The notes under the pieces: generated by a model
What the model was told of the DNA's origin: nothing
Seen by the model: the letters and a program-made list of their open reading frames with translations, nothing else
The model's database searches: none
Shown: positions 30,352 through 60,025 of the stretch, piece after piece
How the letters are laid out: each line of letters opens with the position of its first letter
Position numbering within the stretch: position 1 is the first letter of the stretch
Made by a program: the position numbers and the translations under genes
Assembly: GCA_018830885.1 (NCBI GenBank)
Contig: JAHJRI010000274.1
Span: 1-60,389, forward strand
DNA from: a bacterium
Lineage (GTDB): Bacteria; SAR324; XYD2-FULL-50-16
Direction of reading: 5' to 3'
DNA: 60,389 nt

Positions 30352-31359
30352 ATGACAATCGCGATCGATGCAATGGGCGGCGACACGTATCCTGGAAATC
30401 CGGTGCAGGGTGCGGTGACCGCTGCTAATGAGTTCAGGATCCACGTCCTGTTGGTGGGGGATGAGACTGTTATTCAAACAGAGCTCAATCGACACAGATG
30501 GGACCGGTCCCGAATTGATATCGTTCACGCCAGTCAGGTCATTGAAATGGGTGAACCCGTTGCGTCAGCGGTGCGTGCGAAAAAGGACGCTTCCATGCGG
30601 GTCTGCTATGATCTGCACAAGAACGGTGTTGTCAACGGCGTTGTCAGTGCCGGAAATTCAGGGGCTATGCTGGCGGTGGGAAGATTCGTCCTGAAAATGA
30701 TTCCTGGTATCAGCCGGCCCTGTATCAGTGCGATGCTGCCATCCATGGGAGGGAAAGTACTCCTGGTTGATGCAGGGGCAAATATTGACTGTACACCGGA
30801 ACAGCTTCGACAATTTGCAATCCTGGGACATATTTATATGTCCGATCTTCATGCGATCCCTTCTCCGCGTATCGGTCTCTTGAATGTTGGATCTGAAGAG
30901 GGCAAAGGGGATGAACGTCGTAAAAAGACCTTCGACCTGCTGAAAGAAACCCCGTTGAATTTCATCGGCAATGTTGAAGGAGAGGACTTTTTCAGCGGAG
31001 ATGTCGATATTGTCGTAACCGATGGTTTTGCCGGTAATATTCTTCTAAAATCGGTGCAGGCGGCGGCATCGTTTACCGTCAAATTGACCACCCAGGAGAT
31101 AAACCGGTCGCTGTGGGCGAGGTTTGGGTCACTTTTGTTGAGATCCTCGTTCAAAAAGTTGCAAAAACAGATTAACTATGCCGAATTGGGGGGTGCCCCC
31201 TTAATCGGGTTAAGGGGAAACGGAATCGTCTGTCATGGCAAATCCAGCCCTGATGCCATTGAACATGGGATCCGTCTGGCGCAAAAGGCTGCTGATGAAA
31301 GATGGACAGAGAGACTCAGTGAAGGAATTCTGGCATACCAGGAGATCCTGAAACAATAA
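30352..31359 (+). CDS. plsX: Phosphate acyltransferase PlsX
   Basis: PlsX makes acyl-phosphate from acyl-ACP, the donor for PlsY in phospholipid synthesis. The 335-residue protein starts MTIAIDAMGGDTYPGNPVQG and shows SAGNSGAMLAVGRF, GANIDCTPEQLRQFA, GFAGNILLKSVQ and YAELGGAPLIG. It lies between rpmF and fabG. The fabH and fabD genes that usually come next are missing. Confidence 0.96.
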   Translation: MTIAIDAMGGDTYPGNPVQGAVTAANEFRIHVLLVGDETVIQTELNRHRWDRSRIDIVHASQVIEMGEPVASAVRAKKDASMRVCYDLHKNGVVNGVVSAGNSGAMLAVGRFVLKMIPGISRPCISAMLPSMGGKVLLVDAGANIDCTPEQLRQFAILGHIYMSDLHAIPSPRIGLLNVGSEEGKGDERRKKTFDLLKETPLNFIGNVEGEDFFSGDVDIVVTDGFAGNILLKSVQAAASFTVKLTTQEINRSLWARFGSLLLRSSFKKLQKQINYAELGGAPLIGLRGNGIVCHGKSSPDAIEHGIRLAQKAADERWTERLSEGILAYQEILKQ

Positions 31360-31414
31360 CAAACAGACCATTCATGATCTCATATTTTATGTGAACGAAA
31401 TAAGTGGATGAATT

Positions 31415-32155
31415 ATGATACATCTGAAAGGACAAACAGCTTTGGTTACGGGGGGTTCCCGCGGGATCGGCAAGGAAGTGATGACCAAACTGGCTCAGGC
31501 CGGGGCGGATGTCTGCTTTATAGACCTGATTTCAGATCTGGCCGGGCAGGTCGAAGAGGAAGTAAAGACCCATGGTGGACAGTGCGTTTTTTACAAGGGT
31601 AATGTGGCGGATCTGGATCAGTGCGTGAAAATTGCGGATGAGATACTGGAACGGTTCAGCAAAATCGATATTCTGGTGAACAACGCCGGTATTACACGGG
31701 ATGCCTTGTTTATGCGGATGAGTCGGGAGAACTGGGATGATGTTATCAATATCAATCTCGGCGGTATTTTCAATATGTGCAAGGCGGTGATTCGCCCGAT
31801 GGTCAAGGCGAAATATGGCAGAATTATCAACCTCAGTTCCATTGTCGGTTATACGGGAAATCCCGGTCAGGTGAACTATTCTTCCGCTAAAGCTGGTTTG
31901 ATCGGTTTTACAAAGTCTCTGGCGAAAGAAGTGGCCTCCAGAAATATCACCTGTAATGCGATTGCCCCAGGATTTATCAAATCGGATATGACGGACAAAC
32001 TGGACGAGACGCAAAAAAACGCCATGCTGGCCAACGTACCCATGAAACGGATGGGAACCCTGGAAGATGTGGCAAACGGGGTTCTGTTCCTGGCGTCACC
32101 GCTGGCTGATTATATTACCGGGACGACCCTCCATATCAATGGCGGGATGTTTTGA
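31415..32155 (+). CDS. fabG: 3-oxoacyl-ACP reductase FabG
   Basis: NADPH-dependent ketoreductase of fatty-acid elongation, short-chain dehydrogenase fold. TGGSRGIG at residues 12-19 binds the cofactor, NNAG follows, and the catalytic Ser142, Tyr155 and Lys159 are in INLSSIVGYTG and VNYSSAKAG. The end ADYITGTTLHINGGMF is typical of FabG. 246 residues. In this window it is the only ketoreductase that could serve the PfaC/PfaD synthase in trans, though that is speculation. Confidence 0.95.
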   Translation: MIHLKGQTALVTGGSRGIGKEVMTKLAQAGADVCFIDLISDLAGQVEEEVKTHGGQCVFYKGNVADLDQCVKIADEILERFSKIDILVNNAGITRDALFMRMSRENWDDVININLGGIFNMCKAVIRPMVKAKYGRIINLSSIVGYTGNPGQVNYSSAKAGLIGFTKSLAKEVASRNITCNAIAPGFIKSDMTDKLDETQKNAMLANVPMKRMGTLEDVANGVLFLASPLADYITGTTLHINGGMF

Positions 32156-32290
32156 ACGCGTGTTCTTTTGCAGACAGCAGAGGCTGATCAGGTGCCATTA
32201 ATCTGGTATCACATCGCCAAACCTTGAGATTTTGCCGCCGCCTTATATCTTGATTCGTGCAAAAATAACAGGGTTATAGAGAAAAAGGTT

Positions 32291-32319
32291 TTGACAGAGT
32301 TTTTTATTCGTTAGATATT
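32291..32319 (+). promoter_or_regulatory. Candidate promoter for acpP-fabF
   Basis: TTGACA (32291-32296) is followed 17 nt later by GATATT (32314-32319). It would give acpP and fabF a separate promoter with a leader of about 110 nt. ACP is needed in great excess, so independent transcription is plausible. Confidence 0.5.
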
Positions 32320-32438
32320 TTGTGTTCTTACCGGTTTCGAGGGGTGTGCTCTCGGACAACGGTACAAAGTGGCCGATTCCGGATTCTAGTAACGGTAAAA
32401 TATCTAAAAAAATTGATTTTCTATTTGGGAGAGAAAAA

Positions 32439-32687
32439 ATGAGTGTTGAACGAAGTGAAGTTGAAAGCAAAGTGATTGCTATTATTGTTGAGCAGCTTGG
32501 AATTGAAGAGGGAGAAGTTAAACTGGAATCCAATTTCATTGATGACCTGGGTGCAGATTCGCTGGATACAGTTGAGCTGGTCATGGCCTTTGAAGAAGAG
32601 TTTGACCTTGAAATTCCCGATGAGGAAGCTGAAAAAATTACAACTGTTGGTAGCGCAATTGATCACATTGTTGAAGCGATAAACTAA
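32439..32687 (+). CDS. acpP: Acyl carrier protein
   Basis: An 82-residue type II ACP. The phosphopantetheine site is [13 protein letters not shown] with Ser41; the acidic second helix ([20 protein letters not shown]) fits AcpP. ATG 32439 follows GGGAGAGAAAAA. It lies before fabF, as usual. It is the only ACP in the window, hence a candidate carrier for the large lipid synthase, which has none of its own. Confidence 0.97.
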
Positions 32688-32734
32688 GTCGACGCCTTAC
32701 CGGTTGCACCATAACCCGAAACTAGATGATCTGA

Positions 32735-33967
32735 ATGAGAAAACGAGTTGTAGTTACCGGAATCGGAACAGTCAATCCTCTGGGAAACGACCTGGAGACC
32801 ACCTGGGATAAGGTGGTCAAGGGTGTCAGTGGGATCTCTCGGATTACCAAGTTTGATGCCACTGGTTTTCCTACCCAGATAGCGGGTGAGGTGAAGGATT
32901 TTGATCCCCAGTTGTATATTGAAAAAAAAGAGATCAAGAAGATGGATATCTTTATCCAGTATGCCATTGCTGCAAGTGAAGAGGCAGTAAAAATGGCACA
33001 ACTGGAGATTCCGGAAGAACTGGGTCCTGATGTCGGGGTTTCCATTGGTGTCGGTATCGGTGGGTTGCCCAATATTCAATACTTCAGTAAAATCATAGAG
33101 GAGCGGGGACCTTCAAAAATTTCGCCGTTCTTTATTCCCATGACCATCAGCAATATGGCTTCCGGTTACGTTTCCATGAAATACGGGGCCAGAGGGTATA
33201 ACGCCACAACTACATCGGCTTGTTCGTCATCCAATCACTCTATCGGTGATGCCGCCCGCATTATCGAACGGGGAGATGCCAAAGTCATGATTGTGGGAGG
33301 GGCGGAATCAACCATCTCCTCTCTGGCAATCGGTGGTTTCGGGGCGATGAAGGCTCTTTCCCGCCGTAACGATGAACCTGAAAAAGCTTGTCGACCCTAC
33401 GACAGAGACCGGGACGGGTTTGTGCTGGGAGAGGGATGTGGTATTCTGATCCTTGAGGAGTACGAGTTCGCACGTTCCCGTGGGGCAAAAATTCTTGCTG
33501 AACTATCCGGTTATGGGTTCAGCTCCGATGCCTTTCATATCACGAAGCCATCACTGGAAGGTCCTCTGCTGGCAATGAAGAAAGCCATCGCCGACGCCCA
33601 AATTGATGGCGGGGATATCGACTATATCAACGCCCATGGAACGGCGACACCAGCCGGGGATATTAACGAACTCAAAGCCATTCGCAGTGCTCTGGGAGAC
33701 AAGGCAGCGGACCGTGTCTCAGTCAGTTCGACAAAATCCATGACCGGACACCTCCTGGGGGGTGCCGGGGGACTGGAAGCTGTTCTGATTATCAAGGCGA
33801 TGAAACACAGTCTGGTTCCGCCGACGATCAATATTGAAAATCTCGACCCCGAATGTGACATCGATGTGACCCCCAACGTGGCACGTGAAAAGGAAATTAA
33901 TGTCGCCATGAGTAATTCATTCGGATTTGGTGGTACCAACGCCACATTGATATTCAAAAAAATCTGA
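32735..33967 (+). CDS. fabF: 3-oxoacyl-ACP synthase II (FabF)
   Basis: The elongation condensing enzyme (KAS II). Thiolase fold of 410 residues with active Cys163 in TTTSACSSSNHSIGDAA and the two histidines in NAHGTATPAGD and STKSMTGHLLGGAGG; the end AMSNSFGFGGTNATLIF is typical. The residues after the active Cys (SSSNH) differ from the common ATG.H form, but the catalytic triad is complete. acpP precedes it by 47 nt, yggS follows by 12 nt. Confidence 0.95.
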   Translation: MRKRVVVTGIGTVNPLGNDLETTWDKVVKGVSGISRITKFDATGFPTQIAGEVKDFDPQLYIEKKEIKKMDIFIQYAIAASEEAVKMAQLEIPEELGPDVGVSIGVGIGGLPNIQYFSKIIEERGPSKISPFFIPMTISNMASGYVSMKYGARGYNATTTSACSSSNHSIGDAARIIERGDAKVMIVGGAESTISSLAIGGFGAMKALSRRNDEPEKACRPYDRDRDGFVLGEGCGILILEEYEFARSRGAKILAELSGYGFSSDAFHITKPSLEGPLLAMKKAIADAQIDGGDIDYINAHGTATPAGDINELKAIRSALGDKAADRVSVSSTKSMTGHLLGGAGGLEAVLIIKAMKHSLVPPTINIENLDPECDIDVTPNVAREKEINVAMSNSFGFGGTNATLIFKKI

Positions 33968-43686: not shown

Positions 43687-46600
43687 ATGCGTTTGCTTCG
43701 TCTTGAAATCGCCGGCTTCAAATCTTTTTGTGACAAAACGGTGCTGAATTTTGTCCAGGATGGCATTTCAATCGTGGTGGGTCCCAACGGCTGCGGGAAG
43801 AGTAACCTGGTCGATGCCATCCGCTGGGCATTGGGAGAACAGAGCGCCAAACACCTGCGTGGCAGCAGCATGGAAGATGTCATCTTTGCCGGCAGCAGCG
43901 TCCGTCAGTCCGTCAGCATGGCCCAGGTCACACTGGTTTTCTCCAACCCCGAACATGACACGATTCCGAAGTATACCGAGTTCTCAGAGATTTCCGTAAC
44001 CCGACGGCTCTACCGGAGTGGGGAAAGTCAGTATATGATCAATAAAACCCCCTGTCGCCTGACGGACATCCGCGAACTGTTCATGGATACAGGTGTTGGT
44101 GGAAAGGGGTACTCGATCATTGAGCAGGGGAAAATCGAGCAGATCGTCACCAGTCGTGCGGAGGAGCGGCGATCGATCATTGACGAGGCTGCCGGGATCG
44201 TCAAGTTCAAGGCCAAACGCAAGGAAGCAGAAAGGAAGTTTGCAGCCTCCAAACAGAATCTGCTGCGCGTGGAAGACATCATTGCAGAGCTGGTTCGACA
44301 GGAGGAGACACTGCGGGAACAGGTCTCGCAGGCGGAAACCTATCTGTATGCGAAGGCCCGCCTGGAACGATTGCAGCACTGTACGGCGGCCACGCGCTGG
44401 TTTTACTTGACCGAAGAGGCCGACAAAATCATGGAGTCCCTTGAGAAAAACCGGTATTCCGAAGAAGAACTGGCGGTGACCATCGCCACTCTGGAAGTAC
44501 AGGGTGCGTCCCTTCAGCTCGCACTATCTGGAAAGGAGGCCGCCCAGGAGGATCTCCGGCAGACCATCCAGGGGCACAAGGAACAGATTATAAAGCTGGA
44601 GGGAAAGTTGGAGACCGACCGGGCGGCCATTGACAACCTGGATGAATGGCAGAAAAAAGGACTGGATGAAAGTCAACTGATCCAACGGCAGATAGAAACC
44701 ATTGAATTTCAAATCGCCAGTCACCAAAAGGATGAAGCCCTGTATGAAACCAGAATAGCGGAAACGACCATGCAATTGAACCGCCTGCTTGAATTTGAAA
44801 AAATCAAGGAGCGGGAACTGGTTGATAAACGCTCCAGTTTGGAGAAAAGCCAGTCGGAAGAACTGACCGTCGTCAAACGGATGAATGATGAGCAGAATCA
44901 GCTGAAGCAATCCCAGGAACGACGGGAAGAACTGAGGGAGAGTGAAACGTCGGCCAGAAATCAATTGGACCTGATGATGGCTGACGGTCTTGATCTGGAT
45001 GGTCATCTTGACTTGTCCATCAAGAAGCTGGAGGGCAAAAGAGAAGCGAAAACACTTTGTCAGGGCCGTATTGAATCACTGGAGCCGATCATCGAAGATC
45101 TGAACCAGCAGGTCAAAACCTGCCAGGATCGTCTCCAGTCATTGTCCCAGTCATCCAATCAGGCCGAAAACCGCTACCAGTCTCTCCAGGAGTTAATCGA
45201 CAGCCACGAAGTCTACGATTCGGCAACCAAAGTGTTCCTGGATTATCTGGACCGGCATCCCGGGCAGGCGCAAGCGGTCGGATATCAGGGCACGCTGGCT
45301 GAACTGGTTGCTCCGCCTCGGGAGGCACTGCCCCAGACAACAGCGTTTTTGAACCGCTACTTCAACCTGCTGGTCTTTTCATCGGTGGACCGTCTGCAGG
45401 ATCTTGTTCAAATAGTCAATGATTTGGAGGTCGAACAGCTGCAGCTGTTTTTCATGGACCTGATTGAAACGTCTCCTCCCGGGGAGAATGGCGAGTTCAA
45501 ACGCTGGATTCAAAGCCGGGCAGGCGAGTCAAACGCAGTGCCCCTGGCAGATTCATTTCAACTGGTCGACAGACCGCTTTTTGAGCTCAGCCGCGAAATG
45601 CTGCTGGAGGGGGCTGGTTTGATCGACCCGGATGCTGCCATTATGACCCGGGCCAAAATCTTTCTTCTGGGAAAACCCGGAAAATCAAACCAGGCAGGCC
45701 TGTTTTTTAAACGCCAGGAGGAGCTTGTCACACTCGAAAAGAGTCTGCAGCAATTCAAAATGGATATCCAGGCGGCGGATGACCGGTTGACCGAAACGTC
45801 GGTGCTTCTGGAAGAACATCAGCGGAACCTGGGCCGATACCGGAAAGAGATGATCGATCTGGATCTGGAGATTCTGGCTGCCGAAAACGAGCTGGATGCC
45901 AGAAAACTGGAGAAAGAGAGATTGCTGAACGGGCAGAAACTCTTGCGGGATCAGCTGGAGCAACTGCAACAATCCCGGCGTATCCTTGAGGAAAAAATCA
46001 CGGCTGTCTCCGTCACGGTTGACGAAAACCACAGCAGACATCTGGCGGTGCAGGCGGAAATTCAGAAACTGAGATCTGTCATCGATGCGGCAGATATGGA
46101 TAAGCAGGAGTATACCGAAGAATTGCAGCTGTTGAGAATCAATCTGGCCAGTCTGGAAGAGAAGCGGAAGAACAACCTGCTGATGGTGGAACGATTGGGA
46201 GAAGACCTCCAGCAGAAAAAGGAACAGCAGTTGGAGATCAACCGCCGTTTTCTGGAAACAAAGGATAAAAAGGCCGCGATTCATGCCTCGCTGGAAAAAT
46301 CAAACGAGGCGCTGCCCAGACAGTTAAAGTTGCTCGGTGCTGTTGAAATCGAACTGAAAACAGTGATGGACACCATCGAAAAGGATCGCAGCCGGTTTAC
46401 TGAAATCCAGACTGCGATTGTCAGGGAACAGAAAAAAAAGACCGGTCTGACAGACAGGAATCACAAACTCGATATCCGCCTGGCTCAGTTGACACAGGAA
46501 GCGAAAAATATTGCGGATAACCTCTATGCTGAGAACCGGATCATGCCGGCGGAACTGATTGAAACCTTCGATGTCCGGCAGTTTGATATTGAGGCCGAGG

Positions 46601-47280
46601 CGGAGACGATAACCCTTCTCAAACAGTCTATCGGTGGCATGGATGATGTCAACCTGGCAGCAAAAAAAGAGTATGATATCCTGAAGGAGAGACTCGATTT
46701 CCTGACGACCCAGTCGGCGGACCTGGAACAGAGCATCAGTGCCCTGGAGAATTCGATCAACAAAATCAATCAGGAATCTCGACGTCGGTTCAGAGATGTG
46801 TTCAAGCTGATCAATCAGCAGTTCAGCAAGCTTTTTCCGCAGTTGTTCGGCGGCGGCGAGGCCTACCTGGAGTTGACCGATGAGTCGGATCTATTGGAAT
46901 CAGGAGTGGAGATCATTGCCCAGCCACCCGGAAAGAAACTGCAAAACATGACTCTCTTGAGCGGTGGCGAAAAAGCGCTGACAGCCATCGCGCTGGTCTT
47001 TTCCATTTTCCAGATCAAACCCAGCCCCTTCTGCCTGCTGGATGAAGTGGATGCTCCGCTGGACGAAGCCAATAATGAACGATTCAACCGACATGTCAAA
47101 CTACTGACGGCGAACTCGCAGTTTATTATTATCACCCATAACAAGAAGACCATGGAGATCGGTGATGCGCTCTTTGGTGTGACCATGGAAGAGCCGGGGA
47201 GTTCCAAAATCGTTTCGGTGGATTTTAACCGTTTCGAAATGGGGCCGGAAACGGAAACCGCCTGGGTGGAAGGATTCTAA
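43687..47280 (+). CDS. smc: Chromosome segregation protein SMC
   Basis: The ATPase of the bacterial condensin, acting with ScpA and ScpB. 1197 residues. Head: MRLLRLEIAGFKSFCD, Walker A GPNGCGKSN (32-40), KYTEFSEISVTRRLYRSGES and the Q-loop region. Two long coiled coils (about 165-500 and 660-1020) flank a hinge (about 515-660), whose sequence (RVAPPREALPQ-type start, LFFMDLIET) is diverged from the usual SMC hinge. The C-terminal head carries LLSGGEKALTAIAL and Walker B CLLDEVDAPLDEAN. It starts at ATG 43687. The PfaC-like gene begins 107 nt after its stop. Confidence 0.95.
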   Translation: MRLLRLEIAGFKSFCDKTVLNFVQDGISIVVGPNGCGKSNLVDAIRWALGEQSAKHLRGSSMEDVIFAGSSVRQSVSMAQVTLVFSNPEHDTIPKYTEFSEISVTRRLYRSGESQYMINKTPCRLTDIRELFMDTGVGGKGYSIIEQGKIEQIVTSRAEERRSIIDEAAGIVKFKAKRKEAERKFAASKQNLLRVEDIIAELVRQEETLREQVSQAETYLYAKARLERLQHCTAATRWFYLTEEADKIMESLEKNRYSEEELAVTIATLEVQGASLQLALSGKEAAQEDLRQTIQGHKEQIIKLEGKLETDRAAIDNLDEWQKKGLDESQLIQRQIETIEFQIASHQKDEALYETRIAETTMQLNRLLEFEKIKERELVDKRSSLEKSQSEELTVVKRMNDEQNQLKQSQERREELRESETSARNQLDLMMADGLDLDGHLDLSIKKLEGKREAKTLCQGRIESLEPIIEDLNQQVKTCQDRLQSLSQSSNQAENRYQSLQELIDSHEVYDSATKVFLDYLDRHPGQAQAVGYQGTLAELVAPPREALPQTTAFLNRYFNLLVFSSVDRLQDLVQIVNDLEVEQLQLFFMDLIETSPPGENGEFKRWIQSRAGESNAVPLADSFQLVDRPLFELSREMLLEGAGLIDPDAAIMTRAKIFLLGKPGKSNQAGLFFKRQEELVTLEKSLQQFKMDIQAADDRLTETSVLLEEHQRNLGRYRKEMIDLDLEILAAENELDARKLEKERLLNGQKLLRDQLEQLQQSRRILEEKITAVSVTVDENHSRHLAVQAEIQKLRSVIDAADMDKQEYTEELQLLRINLASLEEKRKNNLLMVERLGEDLQQKKEQQLEINRRFLETKDKKAAIHASLEKSNEALPRQLKLLGAVEIELKTVMDTIEKDRSRFTEIQTAIVREQKKKTGLTDRNHKLDIRLAQLTQEAKNIADNLYAENRIMPAELIETFDVRQFDIEAEAETITLLKQSIGGMDDVNLAAKKEYDILKERLDFLTTQSADLEQSISALENSINKINQESRRRFRDVFKLINQQFSKLFPQLFGGGEAYLELTDESDLLESGVEIIAQPPGKKLQNMTLLSGGEKALTAIALVFSIFQIKPSPFCLLDEVDAPLDEANNERFNRHVKLLTANSQFIIITHNKKTMEIGDALFGVTMEEPGSSKIVSVDFNRFEMGPETETAWVEGF

Positions 47281-47386: not shown

Positions 47387-50300
47387 ATGCAAAAAATAGC
47401 TGTCATCGGGATGTCATGTCTCTTTCCAGGCGCTGTAACGCCGGGTCAGTTCATGAAAAATCTGTATCAAAACAGGGATTCGACATCTCAGCCCACAGAA
47501 AAACAGATGGGCATCGATCCCGCACTGTATTACAGCCCTGTAAAAGGCCAGACGGACAAGTATTACAGTATGAGGGGGGGCTACGTCCGGGACTTCGCTT
47601 TTGATTCCACCCTGTTTGATGTCCCTGCCGAGGAGCTCGAAGGGCTGGATGATATCTATCAATGGTCCCTCTATGTCGCCCGGGAGGCCCTCAAAGACGC
47701 CGGTTATCTTCAAAATCCGTCGTCTCGCGCCGGCTGCGGTGTTATCATGGGAAATCTCTCCTTTCCAACCAAATCCTCCAACCGGCTTTTCTTACCGATC
47801 TATCATCATGTTATGGGGAAGGCTGCCCGTAAATTGACCGGTCTGCAGGAATTAAATCTGAATGATGGCCAGGAAAACCTGCATGGCGACTTCATCCACA
47901 GCCGCATCTCAGGCTATCCCACGGCACTGGTGGCAAAGGCCCTGTCCCTGTCGGGCAGCTATTTTTCAATTGATGCCGCCTGCGCCTCATCTCTCTATTC
48001 AGTGAAGATTGCCTGCGACTACCTGGAGAATGGAAAGGCAGACATGATGCTGGCTGGGGCGGTCAGTGCAGCAGATCCGTTTTTTGTAAACATGGGTTTT
48101 TCGACCTTCACCGCCTATTCTGATCGTGATGAAAGCCGACCCCTGGATCGCAATTCAGGCGGTCTGGTGTCTGGCGAAGGGGCGGGCATGCTTGTCCTGA
48201 AGCGTTATGAAGACGCCCTGAAGGACAGGGACAGGATCTACGCCGTTATCAGCGGAATCGGGCTGTCGAACGACGGCAGGGGAAAATCAGTGCTCAGCCC
48301 CAGCGCTCAGGGGCAGGTGCTGGCCTATGAACGGGCCTATGCCAATGCCCGGGTTAAACCGGAAGCGGTATCCTATATCGAATGCCATGCAACCGGAACA
48401 CCGGTGGGTGATGTTGAGGAGATTGCTTCACTGGCACAGTTTTTTGGACGATATCAGGCACGTCCGCTGATTGGTTCAGTGAAGGCCAATTTTGGACATC
48501 TCCTTACCAGTGCCGGCATGGCCAGTATGCTGAAGGTGATCCTCAGCATGGCGGAAGGACAGATTCCAGCCACTATCCACCTCAAGGATCCGGTGTCGTC
48601 GTCTGACGACGTCATCTCTGCCCGGCAGGTTGTCGCGGAGAACATGGCCTGGCCGGGTGTTCCATCTGTTCGCTATGGAGCTGTCAATGCTTTCGGTTTC
48701 GGAGGCAGTAATGCCCACATGATTTTTGAACGATCAGATGAAAAGAAACTGCTGAAATCCAGGGATGCAATCCTGGCCAGAAAACAGCGTAAGAAAAAGG
48801 AGACACTTCCAGCCATGGCCATTGTCGGCATGGATGCCCATTTCGGATCGAGTAATGGTCTGGATGCGTTCGACTACACGTTGTATACCCAAAAGCAGCA
48901 GTTCAGGCCCCTGCCGGCCAACCGTTGGAAAGGGTTTGAAAAACATGCCGATCTGCTGGCTCGTTTCGGCTTCAGTGGGGAAACTGTTCCCAGGGGGGCG
49001 TTTATTGAGGACTTTAATTTTGATGTGCTGCGCTACAGGATCCCTCCCAATGAAGTAGAGGCCATGATTCCTCAGCAGTTGCTGATGATGAGTGTGGCAG
49101 ACAGGGCAATCCGGGATGCCAGGATAAAAGAGGGTACCCATGTCGCTGTGCTGATTGCAATGGAAGCGGATCCTACCCTGCACCAGTTCCGTGGGAGGAT
49201 TGACCTGGATTGGAAGCTTGAACAGGCGCTTTCTCTCGCACAGCGTGATCTGGATGAGATACAGATGGCGGAACTGCGGACAACCCTCAAGGATGCTCTC
49301 CGAAAAGCGGTGCAGGTCAACGAATTTACAAGCTTTATCGGCAACATCATGGCCAGCAGGATCGCCTCATTATGGGATTTTTCAGGACCGGCGTTCACGG
49401 TTTCCTCGGAAGAGAATTCCGTTTTTAAGGCACTGGAAGTGGCACAGATGCTTCTCAGCAGTGGCGATGCAGAGGCAGTCGTCGTCGGCGGCGTCGACCT
49501 TGCTGGCAACGTGGAGGATGTGCTGATCCGGAACCGAATGATGTCAGCGGTCAATTCTGGAAAAACCTCCTCTGGTATCGAAAAGGATGTCAACGGCTGG
49601 ATGATCGGGGAAGGCGCAGGTGCCATTGTCCTGAAACTGCCCGAAGTGGCGAGAAAGGAAAAGGATCGCTGTTATGCCATGATCGACAGCATCACCCTGA
49701 AAAAGGCGGATGAGGTGACGTCGATGACGTCCGCCTGCAGCGAAAGTTTGCAGAAGGCGGGCTTGAAACCTTCGGATATCGGTTATCTGGAGGTGACCGG
49801 GGCGGAAACTGGGGTGGATGAAAAGATTGACGCATTGCTTGGGGCTTACCGGACCTCCTCTGCCGATCTCAGTTGCGCTGTGGGCAGCGTAACAGCCAGT
49901 TTTGGGCACTGTTTCGCAGCTCTGGGTATGGCCAGTCTTATCCGAACTGCACTGGCGCTTTATCGCCGCTATATCCCTGGCGTACCCGGTTGGGATAAGC
50001 CGAAGCGGAAGGCGACCTGGAAAGGGAGTCCCTTTTATGTGGAAACAGAATCGAAAAGCTGGTTTCTGGATCCAGGTCACTCGAAAAGAGTGGCGGCTAT
50101 CTTTGGCACCGGCCTGGATGGTACCGCGGCCCATCTGATCCTGTCGGAAAACCTGGACCCGAGAAAACGCAGCAGCAGTCTTCTGCAAGAGACGCCGCTG
50201 CGGTTCTTCCCGGTGGCAGCGAATGACAAAAAGGGGCTTTTCCTGAAACTGGCGGATTTGCGGCATGATGTGGCATCGACTGGGAACCTGATCCAGCTGG

Positions 50301-53300
50301 CTGGTGAACAGGCTGAGAAAGTCAAGTTGGACCGGGACGCAAAATACGTCCTGACGATTGTAGGGGATGACAGAACCCGGCTGATACAGGAGATTGATGC
50401 GGCTCTGGAAGGTGCTGAGACCGCTTTTTCAGAGTACAGGGAATGGATCTCACCCGCAGGCAGCTATTTTACGCCCGAACCTCTGGGCAAACGGGGTAAG
50501 GTGGCGTTTGTCTACCCCGGTGCCTTCAACTCCTATCTGGGCATGGGACGGGACCTCTTTCAGATCTTTCCGGAGCTGGTCGATCTTATTTCCACGTACA
50601 CGACGCAGCCTGAACGGATGATAAGGGACCGGTTGATCTATCCCCGCAGTCTGTCCCGTCTTTCAGAGTCTGAAAAGGCCGAAAAACAGTCCGCATTGGA
50701 AAACAACGCCATCGCCATTTTCGAATCCGGGATCAATACCGCTATTCTGAATACCGCAGTTGCCAGGGGTGTTCTGGGAATCCAGCCGGAGATGGTCTTC
50801 GGTTACAGCATGGGGGAGGTCTCCATGAACTTTGCCATGGGCATCTGGGAAAGTACGGATAAGATGAGCAAAATCCTGCATACGCACCCGATTTTTCTGG
50901 AGCGTCTGGCTGGACCGATGAAAGCAGCCCGCGAAGCATGGGGGTTGCCTCCCGGGGATCCGGATCAGACCGAGGTCATCTGGCACTGCTACACCATCAG
51001 TGGCTCTGCCGAACAGGTCCGGGAAGCGGTTGGAGCAGAAGAACAGGTCTATCTGATTATTATCAACTCTCCTGACGAGGTGGTCATCGCTGGCGAAAAG
51101 GAAGCCTGCCGTCGTGTAGTGGCATCGCTGCCTTACCGATATGTCCTGACACCCATGAGCGATACCATCCATTGCGACATTGTCCGACCTGATTATGAGG
51201 CCATTGCCCATCTCCATGACTCTCCGGTCGCCTTTGACCCCGGTATTCCCTTCTATTCCGCTGCCCGCTATGAACCAACACCGCTGACTGCTGAAACCAT
51301 CGCTGATAATATTGCGCAGGTCTACTGTAAAACAATTGATTTTCCCAGGCTGGTCAACCGGGTTTATGAGGATGGCGCCAGGATATTTCTGGAGCTGGGA
51401 CCTAAAGAGGGGTGCTCCAGGTTTATCACCCATACCCTGGGAAATCGGGAACATCTTTCCCTGAGCATGAACCGCAGGGGAGCCGATGATATGACCACCC
51501 TGGTTAAAGTGGTATCAAAACTGCTGAGTCATCGTGTCAATCTGGATCTTTCCCTTCTGGTCCCCCGCGTTACGAATGAGGGTCGCACACCCCCGAAGAT
51601 GATCAAAAGAATCATTCTGGGGAGTGAAGACAAGGTATCGAAGATCCTGGAGACCGATATTCGTTCTCCTTCCAAGCCACAGATGAAGACAATCGTTGAG
51701 GCACCCGATACAACAGCAGCCAATCCCACCCTCGTCTTCGACGTGCAGTCTCAGTTGGCTGCCCACCAGACACAAATCAGTGCCAGCCACCGGGCATTCC
51801 TGAATGCCCGTCATGCGTCGCTTCAGGAACTGCGGGAGAGGATCAGGCTGCAGATCGCAATGTCAGACCATCCGAAGGGGGAACCCGCTCTGGATGGTCA
51901 GCCTGAATCTGATGGATACCCGCTGGAGGAACTCCCTCGACAGAGAGTCAGACCACCGGGTGTTATCTGGGACGAAACAGATCTGCTCGAATTTGCCGGC
52001 GGCAAGATCGCCAATGTTTTTGGTGAGGCGTATGCCGTCATCGATTCATACAAATACCGGGTCAGGCTGCCCCTCCCTCCCTATCTGCTGGTGAACCGCG
52101 TGACAGGGCTGAATGCCAGGAGGGGAGAATTCAAGCCCTCATCGCTGACGACGGAATACGATGTCCCCTACAATGCCTGGTACAGTGTCGATGGACAGAT
52201 TCCCTGGGCGATTGCCAGTGAGGCGGGGCAGTGCGATCTGCTGCTGATCAGTTATCTGGGAATCGATTTCCAGAGCAAGGGTGAACGCTATTACCGCCTG
52301 ACCGACTATACCATGACCTTCATGGACGAGCTTCCCAAAGAGGGCGATACGCTCCGCTATGAGATTCGAATTGAGTCCTTCATGAAATTGGGTGCGGCAC
52401 TCTTTTTTAATTTTTCCTACGATTGTTTCGTCAGGGACAGGTTGATTTACAAGATGACCGGAGGCAGGGCCGGTTTTTCGACGGATGAAGAGCTGGCTCA
52501 GGGAAAGGGGGTTGTCTTCTCCCGAGTTGAGGAGGAAAATCGCCGGCGCATGCCGAAACAGCATTTTACGCCGCTGATCAATTGTGAACGGACCCGTTTT
52601 GACAGGGAGGCCCTGCTGCATATCACCCGGGGGAATGTGGCCGGCTGTCTGGGACCTGTCTATGATCAGCAGGGGGAGAATCCGTCGCTGCGCTTTTCAG
52701 CGGAAGCGATCATGATGCTGGATCGGATCGTTTCCATCGACAGATCCGGTGGTCCCTGGGGCCTGGGGGAGGTGGTGGCGGAAAAAGACCTCGCCCCCGA
52801 TCACTGGTACTTCCCCTGCCATTTCAAGGACGATAATGTGCTGGCAGGAACACTGATTACAGAAGGGTGCGTGCAACTGCTGGAGTTCTATATGCTCTAT
52901 CTGGGGCTTCAGGTTTACACAAAAGATGCCAGGTTCCAGCCGGTGAAAAACCGGCCCTACGTCATTCGGGCCAGAGGACAGATTATACCAACGGACACAC
53001 GCTTCAGCTATCGCATGGAGGTCATCGAGGTGGGCGTGTCGCCCCGAACCTATGCCCGGGCCAATTTTTATATCATCATGAATGACAGGATCATTGTCGA
53101 TTTCAGGGATCTGGGCATCGAAATGGTGGAGAAGGCGCCAGGGCAGGCTGTGGCTGTAAATTCTGCACAATTCGATCGTCACCATATCGATGCATTTGCC
53201 ACCGGATCCCTGTCGGATTGTTTTGGGCCGGAGTATGATATCTATAAGGAGCGCAGGGGGCCCCGCACGCCCAACGGGGACCTGCAGTTGATCAGCCGGG

Positions 53301-54304
53301 TGTTGCGAGTTGACGGACAACGGCATGATTTCAGCCAGCCCGCCAACCTGATTTCAGAATACGATGTGCCGGCAGATGCATGGTTTTATAGAAACAGCGC
53401 TTATCCGGTGATGCCCTATTCGATGATGATGGAAATCGCCCTGCAGCCTTGCGGTTTTTTGGCGGCCTACATGGGCGCCACCATGCTTTACCCGGATTCG
53501 GAGATGTGTTTCAGGAACATGGATTCGGACGCCACGCTGCTCGCCTGTCCTGATATGCGCGGGAAGACGATTACAGCCCATGCCAGACTGTTTAATGTCT
53601 TCAAGGCCGCCGAAACGGTCGGGCTCAATTTCGACTATACGCTCGAAGTCGATGGAGAACCTTTCTATAACGGTACCACCCTCTTCGGATATTTCACACC
53701 ACAGGCACTGGCTATGCAAAAGGGACTGGATCGGGGTGAGATAGTCCCACCCTGGTCTGAAAGGGAAAATATCCCGGGTACACGGGCTGTGGAGATCGAT
53801 TTGAAATCCGCTCAGGCGCAGGGCACCTATTATCGGGCGCAGCCGGCAAAGCCCTATTACTGCCTGAATGGGCCACAACTGGATTTTCTCGATCGAGTCT
53901 GGATCTATGCCGATTCCGGCAAATACGGCCTGGGATATATCCTCGCTTCAAAAAAAGTCGATCCCCGGGACTGGTTCTATCCCTGCCATTTCTTCCAGGA
54001 TCCGGTCATGCCGGGATCTCTGGGAGTGGAGGCGATGATCCAGGCCATGCGACTTTTTGCCCTGCAGCAGGACCTGGGTGCGGATATGAACTCCCCCCTG
54101 TTCACCAGCATACCGGGATTGACACGCTGGAAATATCGGGGACAGATCACCCCCGACAACGAAACCATGGATATCGAAGTCCATATTAAAAAAGTCCTGA
54201 AACACCAGGGACAGATCGTCATCACGGCTGATGCCAATCTATGGAAGAATAAAATGCGGATCTATGAAGTGACCGATGTCGGCATCGCTCTGGTGGAAGC
54301 ATGA
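47387..54304 (+). CDS. pfaC: PfaC-like lipid megasynthase, KS-CLF-AT-DH-DH
   Basis: A 2305-residue synthase of the PUFA/secondary-lipid type. Domains: ketosynthase 1-450 with Cys199 (DAACASS), His334 (HATGT) and His371 (NFGH); a second KS-like fold about 475-920, where the active Cys is replaced by Glu676 (SSEENS), i.e. a chain-length factor; acyltransferase about 1035-1395 with GYSMGEV (Ser1141) and His1262; then four hot-dog folds of the FabA type from about 1530. Folds 2 and 4 keep the active motif CHF (His1812, CHFKDDNVLAGT; His2201, CHFFQDPVMPGS); folds 1 and 3 do not, as in known PfaC dehydratase pairs. No ACP, ketoreductase or enoyl reductase is inside. An AT between CLF and DH is like myxobacterial Pfa3. 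ATG 47387 follows AGGGAAAAAACGG. pfaD is next. Confidence 0.93.
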   Translation: MQKIAVIGMSCLFPGAVTPGQFMKNLYQNRDSTSQPTEKQMGIDPALYYSPVKGQTDKYYSMRGGYVRDFAFDSTLFDVPAEELEGLDDIYQWSLYVAREALKDAGYLQNPSSRAGCGVIMGNLSFPTKSSNRLFLPIYHHVMGKAARKLTGLQELNLNDGQENLHGDFIHSRISGYPTALVAKALSLSGSYFSIDAACASSLYSVKIACDYLENGKADMMLAGAVSAADPFFVNMGFSTFTAYSDRDESRPLDRNSGGLVSGEGAGMLVLKRYEDALKDRDRIYAVISGIGLSNDGRGKSVLSPSAQGQVLAYERAYANARVKPEAVSYIECHATGTPVGDVEEIASLAQFFGRYQARPLIGSVKANFGHLLTSAGMASMLKVILSMAEGQIPATIHLKDPVSSSDDVISARQVVAENMAWPGVPSVRYGAVNAFGFGGSNAHMIFERSDEKKLLKSRDAILARKQRKKKETLPAMAIVGMDAHFGSSNGLDAFDYTLYTQKQQFRPLPANRWKGFEKHADLLARFGFSGETVPRGAFIEDFNFDVLRYRIPPNEVEAMIPQQLLMMSVADRAIRDARIKEGTHVAVLIAMEADPTLHQFRGRIDLDWKLEQALSLAQRDLDEIQMAELRTTLKDALRKAVQVNEFTSFIGNIMASRIASLWDFSGPAFTVSSEENSVFKALEVAQMLLSSGDAEAVVVGGVDLAGNVEDVLIRNRMMSAVNSGKTSSGIEKDVNGWMIGEGAGAIVLKLPEVARKEKDRCYAMIDSITLKKADEVTSMTSACSESLQKAGLKPSDIGYLEVTGAETGVDEKIDALLGAYRTSSADLSCAVGSVTASFGHCFAALGMASLIRTALALYRRYIPGVPGWDKPKRKATWKGSPFYVETESKSWFLDPGHSKRVAAIFGTGLDGTAAHLILSENLDPRKRSSSLLQETPLRFFPVAANDKKGLFLKLADLRHDVASTGNLIQLAGEQAEKVKLDRDAKYVLTIVGDDRTRLIQEIDAALEGAETAFSEYREWISPAGSYFTPEPLGKRGKVAFVYPGAFNSYLGMGRDLFQIFPELVDLISTYTTQPERMIRDRLIYPRSLSRLSESEKAEKQSALENNAIAIFESGINTAILNTAVARGVLGIQPEMVFGYSMGEVSMNFAMGIWESTDKMSKILHTHPIFLERLAGPMKAAREAWGLPPGDPDQTEVIWHCYTISGSAEQVREAVGAEEQVYLIIINSPDEVVIAGEKEACRRVVASLPYRYVLTPMSDTIHCDIVRPDYEAIAHLHDSPVAFDPGIPFYSAARYEPTPLTAETIADNIAQVYCKTIDFPRLVNRVYEDGARIFLELGPKEGCSRFITHTLGNREHLSLSMNRRGADDMTTLVKVVSKLLSHRVNLDLSLLVPRVTNEGRTPPKMIKRIILGSEDKVSKILETDIRSPSKPQMKTIVEAPDTTAANPTLVFDVQSQLAAHQTQISASHRAFLNARHASLQELRERIRLQIAMSDHPKGEPALDGQPESDGYPLEELPRQRVRPPGVIWDETDLLEFAGGKIANVFGEAYAVIDSYKYRVRLPLPPYLLVNRVTGLNARRGEFKPSSLTTEYDVPYNAWYSVDGQIPWAIASEAGQCDLLLISYLGIDFQSKGERYYRLTDYTMTFMDELPKEGDTLRYEIRIESFMKLGAALFFNFSYDCFVRDRLIYKMTGGRAGFSTDEELAQGKGVVFSRVEEENRRRMPKQHFTPLINCERTRFDREALLHITRGNVAGCLGPVYDQQGENPSLRFSAEAIMMLDRIVSIDRSGGPWGLGEVVAEKDLAPDHWYFPCHFKDDNVLAGTLITEGCVQLLEFYMLYLGLQVYTKDARFQPVKNRPYVIRARGQIIPTDTRFSYRMEVIEVGVSPRTYARANFYIIMNDRIIVDFRDLGIEMVEKAPGQAVAVNSAQFDRHHIDAFATGSLSDCFGPEYDIYKERRGPRTPNGDLQLISRVLRVDGQRHDFSQPANLISEYDVPADAWFYRNSAYPVMPYSMMMEIALQPCGFLAAYMGATMLYPDSEMCFRNMDSDATLLACPDMRGKTITAHARLFNVFKAAETVGLNFDYTLEVDGEPFYNGTTLFGYFTPQALAMQKGLDRGEIVPPWSERENIPGTRAVEIDLKSAQAQGTYYRAQPAKPYYCLNGPQLDFLDRVWIYADSGKYGLGYILASKKVDPRDWFYPCHFFQDPVMPGSLGVEAMIQAMRLFALQQDLGADMNSPLFTSIPGLTRWKYRGQITPDNETMDIEVHIKKVLKHQGQIVITADANLWKNKMRIYEVTDVGIALVEA

Positions 54305-54326
54305 TTGACACAGAAAAGGAGAAGCA

Positions 54327-55976
54327 ATGAAAACTGAAGATAACCGGCTTCACTATTTTGGGAAACTGTCAGAGCAGCTGTTCGTCTGGGAAGGACCGGA
54401 ATCATCCCTGGCATTTGATTCGGAGGGGATGTCCAGGGTGCTGCTCAACCTGGATCAACCCTGTTTTGCAGTGAGAAAAGAAGGGCATATCGGATTGACC
54501 AACGAGGGAAAACTGCAGGCAGCGACCCCTTCGGCAGCGGGAGCACTGTCGCTGCTGGCATACAGTCAGCCGTTGACACCTGAGATGCTGGGAGATGATG
54601 CGTTTTGCCGGTTTCATGGCAGCAGCTATGCCTATTATGCCGGCTCCATGGCACATGGTATCTCTTCTGAAAGCCTGGTGACGGCCCTTGGCAGAAAGGG
54701 CTATCTGGCTTCATTCGGGGCCGGCGGCATCACACAGGTGGCGTTGGAAGGAGCCGTTCAGCGCATCCAGAAGGATTTGCCCCATGGGCCATACGCCTTT
54801 AACTTGATCCACAATCCCTTTGCGGAAAACCTGGAACGCATGGCAGCGGAGACCTATCTCAAGTTCGGGGTTCAGACTGTCGAGGCCTCCGCATTTATGG
54901 ATTTGACCCCGTATGTGGTTTACTACCGGGTCGCCGGTCTCAGCCTCAATCCTGAAAACGGGATTGAGATCGGTAATCGGGTGATTGCCAAAGTCTCCAG
55001 GCGGGAAGTCGCGACAAAGTTCATGGAACCGGCACCGGACAAAATTCTGACCCTCCTGCGGGAGCAAAACCTGATTACCGAAGCTCAGGCCCGGATGGCA
55101 AAAAAGGTGCCCGTGGCGGATGATATCACTGTAGAAGCCGATTCGGGAGGACACACCGATAACCGGCCACTGGTATCGCTACTCCCCTCGATGCTTGCCC
55201 TGCGTAATGAAATCCAGGAAAAACAGGGCTATCAGCAGCAGATCAGAGTCGGGGCGGCCGGTGGTATTGGAACCCCGGAGTCCGTTCTGGCTGCCTTCAT
55301 GATGGGTGCGGCGTATGTTGTCACGGGATCTGTCAACCAGTCCTGCCTGGAAGCGGGAACCTCGGACCATGTCCGCAAACTGCTGCCACAGGTGGGCATG
55401 GCAGACGTTTGTATGGCGCCGGCGTTTGATATGTTTGAAATGGGGGGGAAACTTCAGGTGGTGAAAAGAGGAACTCTCTTTCCCATGCGGGCGAAAAAAC
55501 TCAATGACCTCTATCTTGCTTACACATCCATTGACGAGATTCCAGCTGCAGAAAGGGACAAGCTGGAAAAGCAGGTTTTTCAGCGCTCCCTTGATTCGGT
55601 CTGGGACGAGACCATGGCATATTTCAGGGAGCGGGATCCGGAGCAGATCAACAAGGCGCTGGTCAACCCCAGAAAAAAAATGGCCCTCATCTTTCGCTGG
55701 TATCTGGGACTGACCTCTCACTGGGCAAACAGTGGGGAAACGGGCAGGGAAATGGACTATCAGGTGTGGTGCGGACCTTCCATGGGGGCTTTCAACGACT
55801 GGGTCAGAGGCTCATACCTGGAAATCCCTGAAAAACGGCGGGTAACCGATGTGGCGCATCACCTGATGACCGGCGCCGCCTATCTTTATCGGCTGCAACA
55901 ATTGAAACTGCAGCAATTGCGGTTTCCGAACCATTTCAGCCGCTATCGACCGACCAGCCGCTCATTGCCTGGTTAA
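54327..55976 (+). CDS. pfaD: PfaD-type enoyl reductase
   Basis: A 549-residue FMN-dependent enoyl reductase of the PfaD / 2-nitropropane-dioxygenase fold, which reduces enoyl-ACP in PUFA synthases. Characteristic segments: GSSYAYYAGSMAHGISSE, FGAGGITQVALEGAVQRIQ, YAFNLIHNPF, ADSGGHTDNRPLVSLLPS, GAAGGIGTPESVLAAFMMGAAYVVTGS in parts, and the C-terminal WCGPSMGAFNDWVRGSYLE. ATG 54327 is preceded by AAAAGGAGAAGCA. It follows pfaC by 22 nt, so it is co-expressed. A hemerythrin-like gene converges with it. Confidence 0.95.
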   Translation: MKTEDNRLHYFGKLSEQLFVWEGPESSLAFDSEGMSRVLLNLDQPCFAVRKEGHIGLTNEGKLQAATPSAAGALSLLAYSQPLTPEMLGDDAFCRFHGSSYAYYAGSMAHGISSESLVTALGRKGYLASFGAGGITQVALEGAVQRIQKDLPHGPYAFNLIHNPFAENLERMAAETYLKFGVQTVEASAFMDLTPYVVYYRVAGLSLNPENGIEIGNRVIAKVSRREVATKFMEPAPDKILTLLREQNLITEAQARMAKKVPVADDITVEADSGGHTDNRPLVSLLPSMLALRNEIQEKQGYQQQIRVGAAGGIGTPESVLAAFMMGAAYVVTGSVNQSCLEAGTSDHVRKLLPQVGMADVCMAPAFDMFEMGGKLQVVKRGTLFPMRAKKLNDLYLAYTSIDEIPAAERDKLEKQVFQRSLDSVWDETMAYFRERDPEQINKALVNPRKKMALIFRWYLGLTSHWANSGETGREMDYQVWCGPSMGAFNDWVRGSYLEIPEKRRVTDVAHHLMTGAAYLYRLQQLKLQQLRFPNHFSRYRPTSRSLPG

Positions 55977-56035: not shown

Positions 56036-56644
56036 TTAGTGTGCGCGGACTTTTTCGAGTTGCACGCGTTTTTCCTGATACTGATCGCCAAACACTTCTG
56101 CCAGCTGCGTGTCCATCTGCGCCACCAGCTTTTCGCTGTATGCAAGTGTCTCAGGACCCAGACGCGCTTCCTCCTTTTTGAACTCTTCCATAAAGCCTTC
56201 CATTTCCGCTTCTGTAAACGTTTTTCGGGCCATGGGAAAAAAGACATGGTTTTCCCGGTTGAGATGGGCCCGTTGCAATTGATAGAAGTATCCAAGGTTT
56301 TCGAAGAGTTTTGCCCTCTGGACTTCCGACCCTTCCAGATAACCGTCTATGGAGCGAGCAATCGCCTTGACAAAAGTTCTCCCCCGTTCATGCTGTTCCC
56401 TCAGGGATACAATCTGCGGGTCAATGGTGCCGCCTTTTTTTTCCGCCAATTTTAAGAATATGACGTACTCCTCCTTATAATGATGGTAGGTATCCAAAAA
56501 GGTATTTGAAAAATCCAGTGTTTTTTCCAGGAACTCTTTGGGCAGTTTTCCACCGGTCCCCATCAGATCGATGGCAATTCCCAGGGTGTCCAGATACTTC
56601 CGTACAAGGCGGTGTTCATCCACCAGGATATCGATGACTGACAT
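56036..56644 (-). CDS. Hemerythrin HHE domain protein
   Basis: A 202-residue four-helix protein with the HHE cation-binding pattern: VDEHRLVRKYLD, TYHHYKEEYVIF, REQHERGR, and AHLNRENHVFFPMA, giving the His/Glu ligands for a non-heme di-iron site. Such proteins sense or store O2 or protect against nitrosative/oxidative stress. ATG 56644 with TGGAGAACACT is the best start; ATG 56656 also fits. The gene lies between pfaD (convergent) and the sigma-54 activator gene (same strand, 222 nt upstream). It may be a target of that regulator. Confidence 0.88.
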   Translation of the reverse strand: MSVIDILVDEHRLVRKYLDTLGIAIDLMGTGGKLPKEFLEKTLDFSNTFLDTYHHYKEEYVIFLKLAEKKGGTIDPQIVSLREQHERGRTFVKAIARSIDGYLEGSEVQRAKLFENLGYFYQLQRAHLNRENHVFFPMARKTFTEAEMEGFMEEFKKEEARLGPETLAYSEKLVAQMDTQLAEVFGDQYQEKRVQLEKVRAH

Positions 56645-56866
56645 AGTGTTCTCCATTTTTTGGTTTTTGATAAACAAGCAAATCCGCAACTGTCTTCCAA
56701 ACTGATTACTGAAAAAACTGTGCCATGTTACCGTTGAAGCGTTCAAGCGAGCAATAGCAGGCATGGAGCGGTGATGTCGTATCCGGAAAGGGGGGGAAGT
56801 TTAACTGCATTGTCTGCCTGGTTTTCGGCAGAGGGGGATTTCATCGCCTGGAGCCAGGTGCTCGTT

Positions 56867-58891: not shown

Positions 58892-58976
58892 GGGGTATTG
58901 ACACCCCCTGGCGCTAACCGCCAGGCATTCCATGAATGCCGCGGATAAAACCGGCAGGGAGTCTGTCTGCAGACAG
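58892..58976 (+). other. Run of hairpins in the leader of the NMO-like gene
   Basis: Consecutive stems: GGGGT/ACCCC (58892-58907), CCTGGCG/CGCCAGG with loop CTAAC (58907-58925), GGCATTC/GAATGCC with loop CAT (58924-58940), GCCG/CGGC (58938-58955) and the perfect palindrome CTGTCTGCAGACAG (58963-58976). A further stem CCCTTGCC/GGCAGGG lies at 58819-58841. The neighbouring stems overlap by a few bases and could be mutually exclusive, like a regulatory leader or a cluster of operators. Confidence 0.5.
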
Positions 58977-59068
58977 TGAAAACCATAACAGTCAGGAAAG
59001 TCCGGAAACTTCAGCCGGTTATTCAGAAAGATAGAAATAATGAATCAGATAAAGCAAGGAGAAGCGGA

Positions 59069-60025
59069 ATGAAAACACGAATTACTGAACTACTGGGGGT
59101 TGATCATCCCATCCAGGTTGGAACCATGATGCACATCAGCAATGCTGAATTTGTTGCTGCCTGTGCCAATGCAGGTGTATTTGCCTGTATGGCCACGGCC
59201 ATGTTCCCCGATGAGGTTACGTTGCGGGATGAGCTGGCCAAAGCGAAGGATTTGACGGATAAACCGTTTGGGGTGAATGTCTCCCTTTTCCCGGGTCACG
59301 ATGCCAGAACAGTGGATGTGACACTTGATATTGTCGCTGAAGCGGGCATCAAGATCATTGAGACAGCCGGGCGCAGCCCCCAGCCGCATCTGGAGAAAAT
59401 CCGCCAGAACGGGGCTATTCATGTGCACAAGTGTGCCCGTCTGCGGGATGCCATCAAGGTGGATAAACTGGGTGTTGATATTGTCTCGATTGTTGGCGCG
59501 GAGTGCGGCGGACATCCGGGCATGGAAGATGTCAGCACACTGGTTCTGATCCCCGAAGCTGCCGCCAGTATCAAAGCCCCGTTGTTCGCAGGCGGTGGCT
59601 TCTGTGACGGAGCCACCTTGGTGGCTGGTCTGGCCATGGGAGCAGAAGGGGTGATCATGGGCAGCCGCTTTCTCAATACGGATGAGTGCCGGATTCATGC
59701 CAATACCAAAGAGCGATTTCTGAGAGCAGAGTTGACCGATACGATGGTGATTCAGCGATCCATCCACAGTCCGGTCCGGGTTCTGCAAAACGAGTGGGCG
59801 CTGAAAATTCTGGAGATGGAAAATAGCGGTGCAACCCTCCAAGACCTGCTGCCGAAACTATCCGGGCAGCTTTCCGGCCAATCCTGGCTGACCGGCGGGG
59901 ATGACGCGGTCTTTCCCTGTGGCCAGGTGATCGGTCGTGTCAAGGAGACACTGCCGATCAAAGCCCTGGTGGATAAGATTATTGCCGAGGCAGGTGCAAC
60001 CCGGAAGCGGCTGGCAGCTATCTAA
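59069..60025 (+). CDS. Nitronate monooxygenase family flavoprotein
   Basis: A 318-residue TIM-barrel FMN protein of the nitronate monooxygenase / FabK family. Seen: TRITELLGVDHPIQVGTM, FGVNVSLFPG, IKIIETAGRSPQPH, VGAECGGHPGMEDVS with the active-site-region His, FAGGGFCDGATLVAGLAMGA and GVIMGSRFLNTDEC. ATG 59069 has AAGGAGAAGCGGA upstream; a longer frame to 58976 is likely untranslated leader. Members oxidise nitronates or reduce enoyl-thioesters. Proximity to PfaD, which has the same fold, is suggestive but does not decide the function. Confidence 0.9.
   Translation: MKTRITELLGVDHPIQVGTMMHISNAEFVAACANAGVFACMATAMFPDEVTLRDELAKAKDLTDKPFGVNVSLFPGHDARTVDVTLDIVAEAGIKIIETAGRSPQPHLEKIRQNGAIHVHKCARLRDAIKVDKLGVDIVSIVGAECGGHPGMEDVSTLVLIPEAAASIKAPLFAGGGFCDGATLVAGLAMGAEGVIMGSRFLNTDECRIHANTKERFLRAELTDTMVIQRSIHSPVRVLQNEWALKILEMENSGATLQDLLPKLSGQLSGQSWLTGGDDAVFPCGQVIGRVKETLPIKALVDKIIAEAGATRKRLAAI

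Follow-up and report, generated by a model that had tools for sequence, protein, structure and literature searches.

A SAR324 pfaBC-pfaD locus as the probable half of a two-locus Pfa-type synthase with a predicted slippage site in pfaA

Fused PfaBC proteins have already been described for the Type C and Type I Pfa synthases of Deltaproteobacteria, and a linked phosphopantetheinyl transferase (PPTase) is not present in every described Pfa type (Shulse & Allen 2011, PMC3098273). Here we analyse a locus with such a fused protein in a SAR324 bacterium. The stretch of DNA examined, hereafter the window, comprises 60,389 nt (positions 1-60,389 of contig JAHJRI010000274.1, assembly GCA_018830885.1) and carries pfaBC (47387-54304) and, after an intergenic gap of 22 nt, pfaD (54327-55976), both on the forward strand. 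The first gene encodes the ketosynthase (KS), chain length factor (CLF), fused acyltransferase (AT) and two FabA-type dehydratases (DH) expected of the PfaC component of a Pfa-type synthase, and the second encodes the PfaD enoyl reductase. Within this locus, no gene for PfaA, an acyl carrier protein (ACP), a ketoreductase (KR) or a PPTase stands alongside them. The window quite probably holds the PfaBC-PfaD half of a complete Pfa-type synthase that is divided between two loci and whose PfaA is predicted to be built by slippage on a run of adenines.

The two-locus arrangement and its inheritance

The genome to which the window belongs (G000) comprises 7.41 Mb in 496 contigs, is 93.1% complete and has an estimated contamination of 6.4%; the pfaBC-pfaD locus is on its contig C228. 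A search of this genome for a PfaA with tandem ACPs and for a PPTase, as proposed in the initial annotation of the window, found both. On contig C365, a first open reading frame (ORF) of 1489 aa contains a KS (8.9e-61), a MAT and three PP-binding (ACP) domains, and the next ORF, of 831 aa, contains a KR and a polyketide synthase-type DH (PKS_DH). The KS-MAT-tandem ACPs-KR organization of PfaA is therefore found on this contig, spread over two ORFs. The one convincing PPTase match lies on contig C179 (2.3e-10, 234 aa, with an EntD-type GSITH motif). No PfaE-type enzyme is linked to pfaBC-pfaD; by complementation, EntD can stand in for a lost pfaE (PMC2901515). All essential parts of the synthase are present in this genome, simply unlinked.

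The initial annotation had described a synthase without PfaA, ACP, KR or PPTase. This is accurate for the locus and does not hold genome-wide, given the PfaA and KR-DH on C365 and the PPTase on C179. It was right that a carrier must act in trans, since the locus has no ACP and the ACPs are on an unlinked PfaA, which was one of the options it named. The AcpP and FabG of the block at 31-34 kb, which it offered as partners, are part of an ordinary plsX-fabG-acpP-fabF block, and the locus can be explained without them. The competing case it had allowed for, a standard cluster split in two, largely describes what was found for pfaA; a separate pfaB does not exist, since it forms part of the fused PfaBC, and the unlinked EntD-like PPTase takes the place of pfaE.

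A comparison of gene order in relatives, also suggested at the outset, showed that the two-locus layout is shared by genera g1 and g4, with the genes clustered in other genera. The neighbourhoods smc-pfaBC-pfaD and radA..pfaA2-pfaA1..ndk are common to both genera. An smc orthologue lies immediately 5' of pfaBC in G001, G004 and G008, and the genes that flank pfaA on its radA side and its ndk side are the same in G000, G004 and G008 (the latter two being g4 genomes), with partial views of its surroundings on the ndk side in G001 (g1) and on the radA side in G009. In G008, a single contig of 274 kb carries both loci, one at 21.6-26.0 kb and the other at 172-181 kb, 146 kb apart. The congener G001 resembles G000 at both loci (77-79% identity over pfaA1, 82% over a partial pfaBC, syntenic flanks), and the g1+g4 clade has 100/99 support in a tree of PfaA KS-AT. 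A single contiguous cluster was found in neither g1 nor g4. The synteny in G001, G004, G008 and G009, together with the single contig of G008, leads us to reject a contig break or contamination as the cause of the split.

Elsewhere in SAR324, pfaA adjoins pfaBC in genera g2, g5, g7 and g11, and pfaA and pfaBC/pfaD are found together in most genomes. In the sister genus g6, pfaA2 is separated from pfaBC by sbcD/sbcC-like genes (L102:1-4238, G006), an order that is apparently intermediate towards the two-locus layout. In the Beggiatoaceae-like genome G059 (Gammaproteobacteria bacterium B20_G6; L229/L230), pfaBC-pfaD is placed well away from the ends of its contig and pfaA is on a different one, apparently an independent case. 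From the shared neighbourhoods, the G008 contig, the tree and G059, we conclude that the split in g1 and g4 is real and inherited, and that such a split has probably arisen more than once. A polyunsaturated fatty acid (PUFA)-type megasynthase can thus pass across genera as two unlinked loci, and any search for clusters in which pfaA must stand beside pfaC will overlook such systems or misinterpret them, as happened in the initial annotation.

An adenine run at the ACP-to-KR boundary of pfaA

The most interesting outcome of the analysis, the slippery junction of pfaA, is located outside the window. In G000 it lies at L028:5994-6030 (contig C365), where the 3' end of pfaA1 reads ...GCA TCA AAA AAA AAA CTG AAG AAC TGA and includes a run of ten adenines (A10). 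When the frame is set one base back after this run, the sequence reads KKKTEELIHPIERKTVRLKQLPAP... directly into the KR-DH protein. A run of A9-A12 occurs at this boundary in all 27 readable SAR324 junctions. The KR-DH half is in the -1 frame in 23 of them, with runs of A9 (11 junctions), A10 (8) or A11 (4), and in frame in the remaining four (G002, G005, G007 and G013). On the PfaA KS-AT tree the split or fused state switches at least twice, and the run persists. Only 10 other runs of at least nine adenines were found in 573 kb of SAR324 DNA, both strands counted. Codon usage alone was considered as the origin of the run and rejected: of the 83 KKK tripeptides in SAR324 ORFs, 17 are encoded entirely by AAA, nearly all of these at the junction, even though AAA makes up 70% of lysine codons.

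Coding constraint in the -1 frame begins right after the run. Over the following 120 nt in 12 g9 genomes, codon pairs that differ by a single change were synonymous in 898 cases and nonsynonymous in 320 when read in the -1 frame, with no stops; the same 120 nt read in the 0 frame gave 159 synonymous and 967 nonsynonymous pairs and 27 stops. These counts are phylogenetically non-independent, and it is the contrast between frames that counts. In several of these genomes (G011, G019, G020, G024, G043 and G050), no ATG, GTG or TTG precedes the selected stretch in the -1 frame. The first start codons of the KR-DH half in that frame are non-conserved and lie at variable positions, 51-187 nt downstream.

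The same junction, with A10 or A11 and a -1 relation, is found in three Beggiatoaceae genomes. Among 62 loci with a readable pfaA junction in a genome scan, 46 have the run and are in frame, six have the run and are split (four need -1 and two need +1 to join the halves), and ten are in frame without the run. The run is present at the junction in 52 cyanobacterial loci, compared with 14 other runs in 1.44 Mb of cyanobacterial DNA. Many of these junctions read GGAGGTG-A10-G, which places a Shine-Dalgarno-like string beside A_AAA_AAG. Some of the genomes with cyanobacterial A-run junctions are complete or almost so (L132, L144 and L168), and split junctions are also present in cultured isolates, among them Chlorogloeopsis fritschii PCC 6912. 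The run is not universal: it is absent from Persicobacter JZB09 and a Streptomyces plasmid (both in frame), from the ten fused scan loci and from Chloroheliaceae L118, and the pfaA of Persicobacter psychrovividus has a different split, without a run.

Predicted synthesis of PfaA and alternative explanations

Runs of at least nine A or T can trigger transcriptional slippage, and A_AAA_AAR heptamers can trigger -1 ribosomal frameshifting. Since the run and the constant frame relation are kept and selection in the -1 frame precedes any start codon, slippage is predicted at the pfaA junction: dnaX-like programmed frameshifting or transcriptional slippage very probably yields two forms of PfaA. Translation in the 0 frame at the A10 run would give KS-MAT-ACP3 and then stop; a -1 ribosomal shift, or a transcript one A longer, would give the full KS-MAT-ACP3-KR-DH. 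The conservation in SAR324 of a run of nine or more, with no evident stimulator beside it, leads us to favour transcriptional slippage over a ribosomal shift there; inspection by eye found no obvious Shine-Dalgarno-like string directly upstream of the SAR324 runs. For cyanobacteria, a ribosomal shift is just as possible. One possible reason for having two forms is to keep ACP-bearing KS-MAT in excess of KR-DH.

The proposed complex would work as follows. The unlinked EntD/Sfp-type PPTase would activate the tandem ACPs of PfaA, and PfaBC and PfaD would act in trans on acyl chains carried by these ACPs. The KS-CLF would extend the chain, the AT would load or offload it, the FabA-like dehydratases would dehydrate or isomerise it and PfaD would reduce it. 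The product of the window synthase is probably a polyunsaturated or polyene long-chain acyl group.

The initial annotation had read the locus as a minimal secondary-lipid system of its own, in which PfaBC and PfaD would work with the housekeeping AcpP and FabG, independently of PfaA, to make a distinct product. A pfaBC-pfaD locus with no carrier or KR, and with AcpP and FabG in the same window (31-34 kb), might suggest this. We consider it very improbable, given that the same genome contains a dedicated PfaA, complete with tandem ACPs and KR-DH, as well as a PPTase, that the same two-locus layout recurs in g4, that sister genera keep the same genes physically clustered with pfaA, and that the two sets of genes co-occur in most SAR324 genomes. 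That C365 or C228 is a contaminant from another organism, as the contamination estimate of G000 could imply, is extremely improbable, since both neighbourhoods match G001 and the g4 genomes. Somewhat more plausible, though still unlikely, is plain gene fission, in which pfaA1 and pfaA2 are independently initiated and the run is incidental. Split PfaA proteins are known from Types D and H (Shulse & Allen, PMC3098273), and Persicobacter psychrovividus is split without a run. However, no readable SAR324 junction lacks the run, whether the gene is split or fused, and such runs are scarce elsewhere; moreover, -1-frame selection begins before any start codon in several genomes, and those start codons that follow are variable.

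The frame break might instead be an artefact of sequencing or assembling a homopolymer, every pfaA being in reality one in-frame gene. Homopolymers are error-prone, SAR324 sequences are mostly draft metagenome assemblies, and the same run is found without a frame break in four SAR324 and 46 cyanobacterial genes. Yet all 23 split genomes have the identical frame relation at runs of 9, 10 and 11, which random errors would have scattered; the run of G050 appears to have been lengthened by substitution rather than insertion, and its frame relation is kept; and cultured isolates are split too. We regard an artefact as improbable, and a deeply conserved run would remain even if it were true. Several observations do weigh against slippage within a two-locus synthase. 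The -1 frame of G050 stops after 218 codons, the split SAR324 junctions come from draft assemblies in which a homopolymer miscall is possible in any single genome, and two Nostoc loci (L149 and L164), with A9 runs, need +1 rather than -1 to join the halves, possibly through recent loss of one base from an in-frame A10. In addition, because G000 consists of 496 contigs with 6.4% estimated contamination, the membership of its contigs rests on synteny with relatives.

It is reasonably likely that a programmed A9-A12 slippage site separating the tandem ACPs from the ketoreductase is common to the PfaA/HglE-type megasynthases of SAR324, Beggiatoaceae and Nostocales. Such a site would give KS-MAT-ACPn with or without KR-DH, the ratio depending on whether it is in the fused or the shifted phase; in the clade of the window organism it would accompany the separation of pfaA from pfaBC-pfaD. 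If so, the proportion of reducing PfaA (with KR-DH) to carrier-only PfaA would be set by homopolymer slippage, as for DnaX tau and gamma, and many pfaA or hglE genes annotated as split or frameshifted would each be one gene. We found no report in the literature of slippage or frameshifting in pfaA, PUFA synthase, hgl or polyketide synthase genes; pfaA slippage is not mentioned in a recoding survey (PMC3711429) or in the accessible part of a recoding review (PMC5009743).

The window locus and its relation to known systems

The domain order KS-CLF-AT-DH-DH, the enoyl reductase and the lack of an ACP in the 2305-residue protein, all put forward in the initial annotation, are confirmed by the ORFs, Pfam and TIGR02814. 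In PfaBC (ORF, Pfam, TIGR02816, motif scan and PDB sequence match), the Pfam matches comprise two ketoacyl-synthase units, one acyltransferase and a pair of FabA dehydratases; a PP-binding domain is not among them. The ketosynthase domain (aa 2-460, 47390-48766; PF00109/PF02801/PF16197) has its catalytic DAACASS at aa 196. The second KS-like unit (aa ~478-935, 48818-50191, the end being approximate; PF00109, 6riw match, motif scan) includes a PF00109 stretch at 48818-49636; the motif scan found no second DxACxSS in PfaBC, which fits a chain length factor. The PfaB-type acyltransferase follows (aa 993-1391, 50363-51559; TIGR02816, PF00698, 9ry8), with GYSMG at aa 1139. The first FabA-type dehydratase is marked by its active-site region HFKDDNVLAG (aa 1812-1821, 52820-52849; motif scan, with PF07977 in two stretches) and the second spans aa 2163-2295 (53873-54271; PF07977), with HFFQDPVMPG at aa 2201. 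The best PDB sequence relatives are 6riw 'ORF10' for aa 1-859 (7e-242) and 9ry8 'PfaBs' for aa 1000-1394 (3e-39). PfaD, a trans-acting enoyl reductase of 549 aa, scores 652 bits against TIGR02814 (cut-off 449), matches PF18328 PfaD_N, PF21607 and PF03060, and has PDB 4yx6 PfaD as its best sequence relative (5e-197).

The flanks are as first described. The upstream neighbour smc (43687-47280, forward strand; ORF) ends before pfaBC, and a hemerythrin-domain gene (56036-56764, reverse strand; PF01814), convergent with pfaD, lies outside the synthase; no hemerythrin homologue adjoins pfaD in G004 or G008. A nitronate-monooxygenase-family flavoprotein is encoded at 58976-60025, 3 kb downstream of pfaD, and a homologue 42-44% identical to it lies directly 5' of pfaA in G003, G005 and G007 (L107:3780-4745, L109:4471-5439 and L111:4171-5136). 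The window also contains a type II fatty acid synthesis block (30352-33967), plsX-fabG-acpP-fabF, without fabH or fabD. In the 93% complete G000, no convincing FabH (PF08541/PF08545) was found, and the search for OleA, a FabH-like thiolase, gave only weak PF08541/PF08545 matches in ORFs of 473-491 aa, each adjoining a second conserved ORF and none OleA-sized. With no OleA-like gene seen in this genome, an Ole-linked hydrocarbon product is not indicated.

In gene and domain content, the system resembles Type C and Type I synthases, with a fused pfaBC (KS-CLF-AT-DH2 in Type C), pfaD and a PfaA of KS-MAT-tandem ACP-KR. These are described as single clusters, whereas here pfaA is unlinked and split at the A-run, and an EntD-like PPTase replaces an adjacent PfaE. 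Types D and H (PMC3098273) likewise have pfaA1 (KS-AT-ACPn) and pfaA2 (KR) as separate ORFs; here, in contrast, the frames overlap across a conserved A9-A11 run and the second ORF has no proper start codon. The heterocyst glycolipid (hgl) islands of cyanobacteria, their identity as such being inferred from gene order, have a PfaD about 58-64% identical and, in most of the loci sampled, the same A10 run where the ACPs meet PfaA2. They differ in that most of their PfaC homologues are shorter (about KS-CLF-AT), their KR part has an additional break and the run is mostly in frame. The closest parallel to the junction itself is the frameshifting or transcriptional slippage of dnaX, which also combines an A-rich run (A_AAA_AAG in many cyanobacterial junctions) with a short and a long form, and one site with both in-frame and shifted versions; in pfaA, the gene is that of a lipid megasynthase, and the slippage is predicted from sequence.

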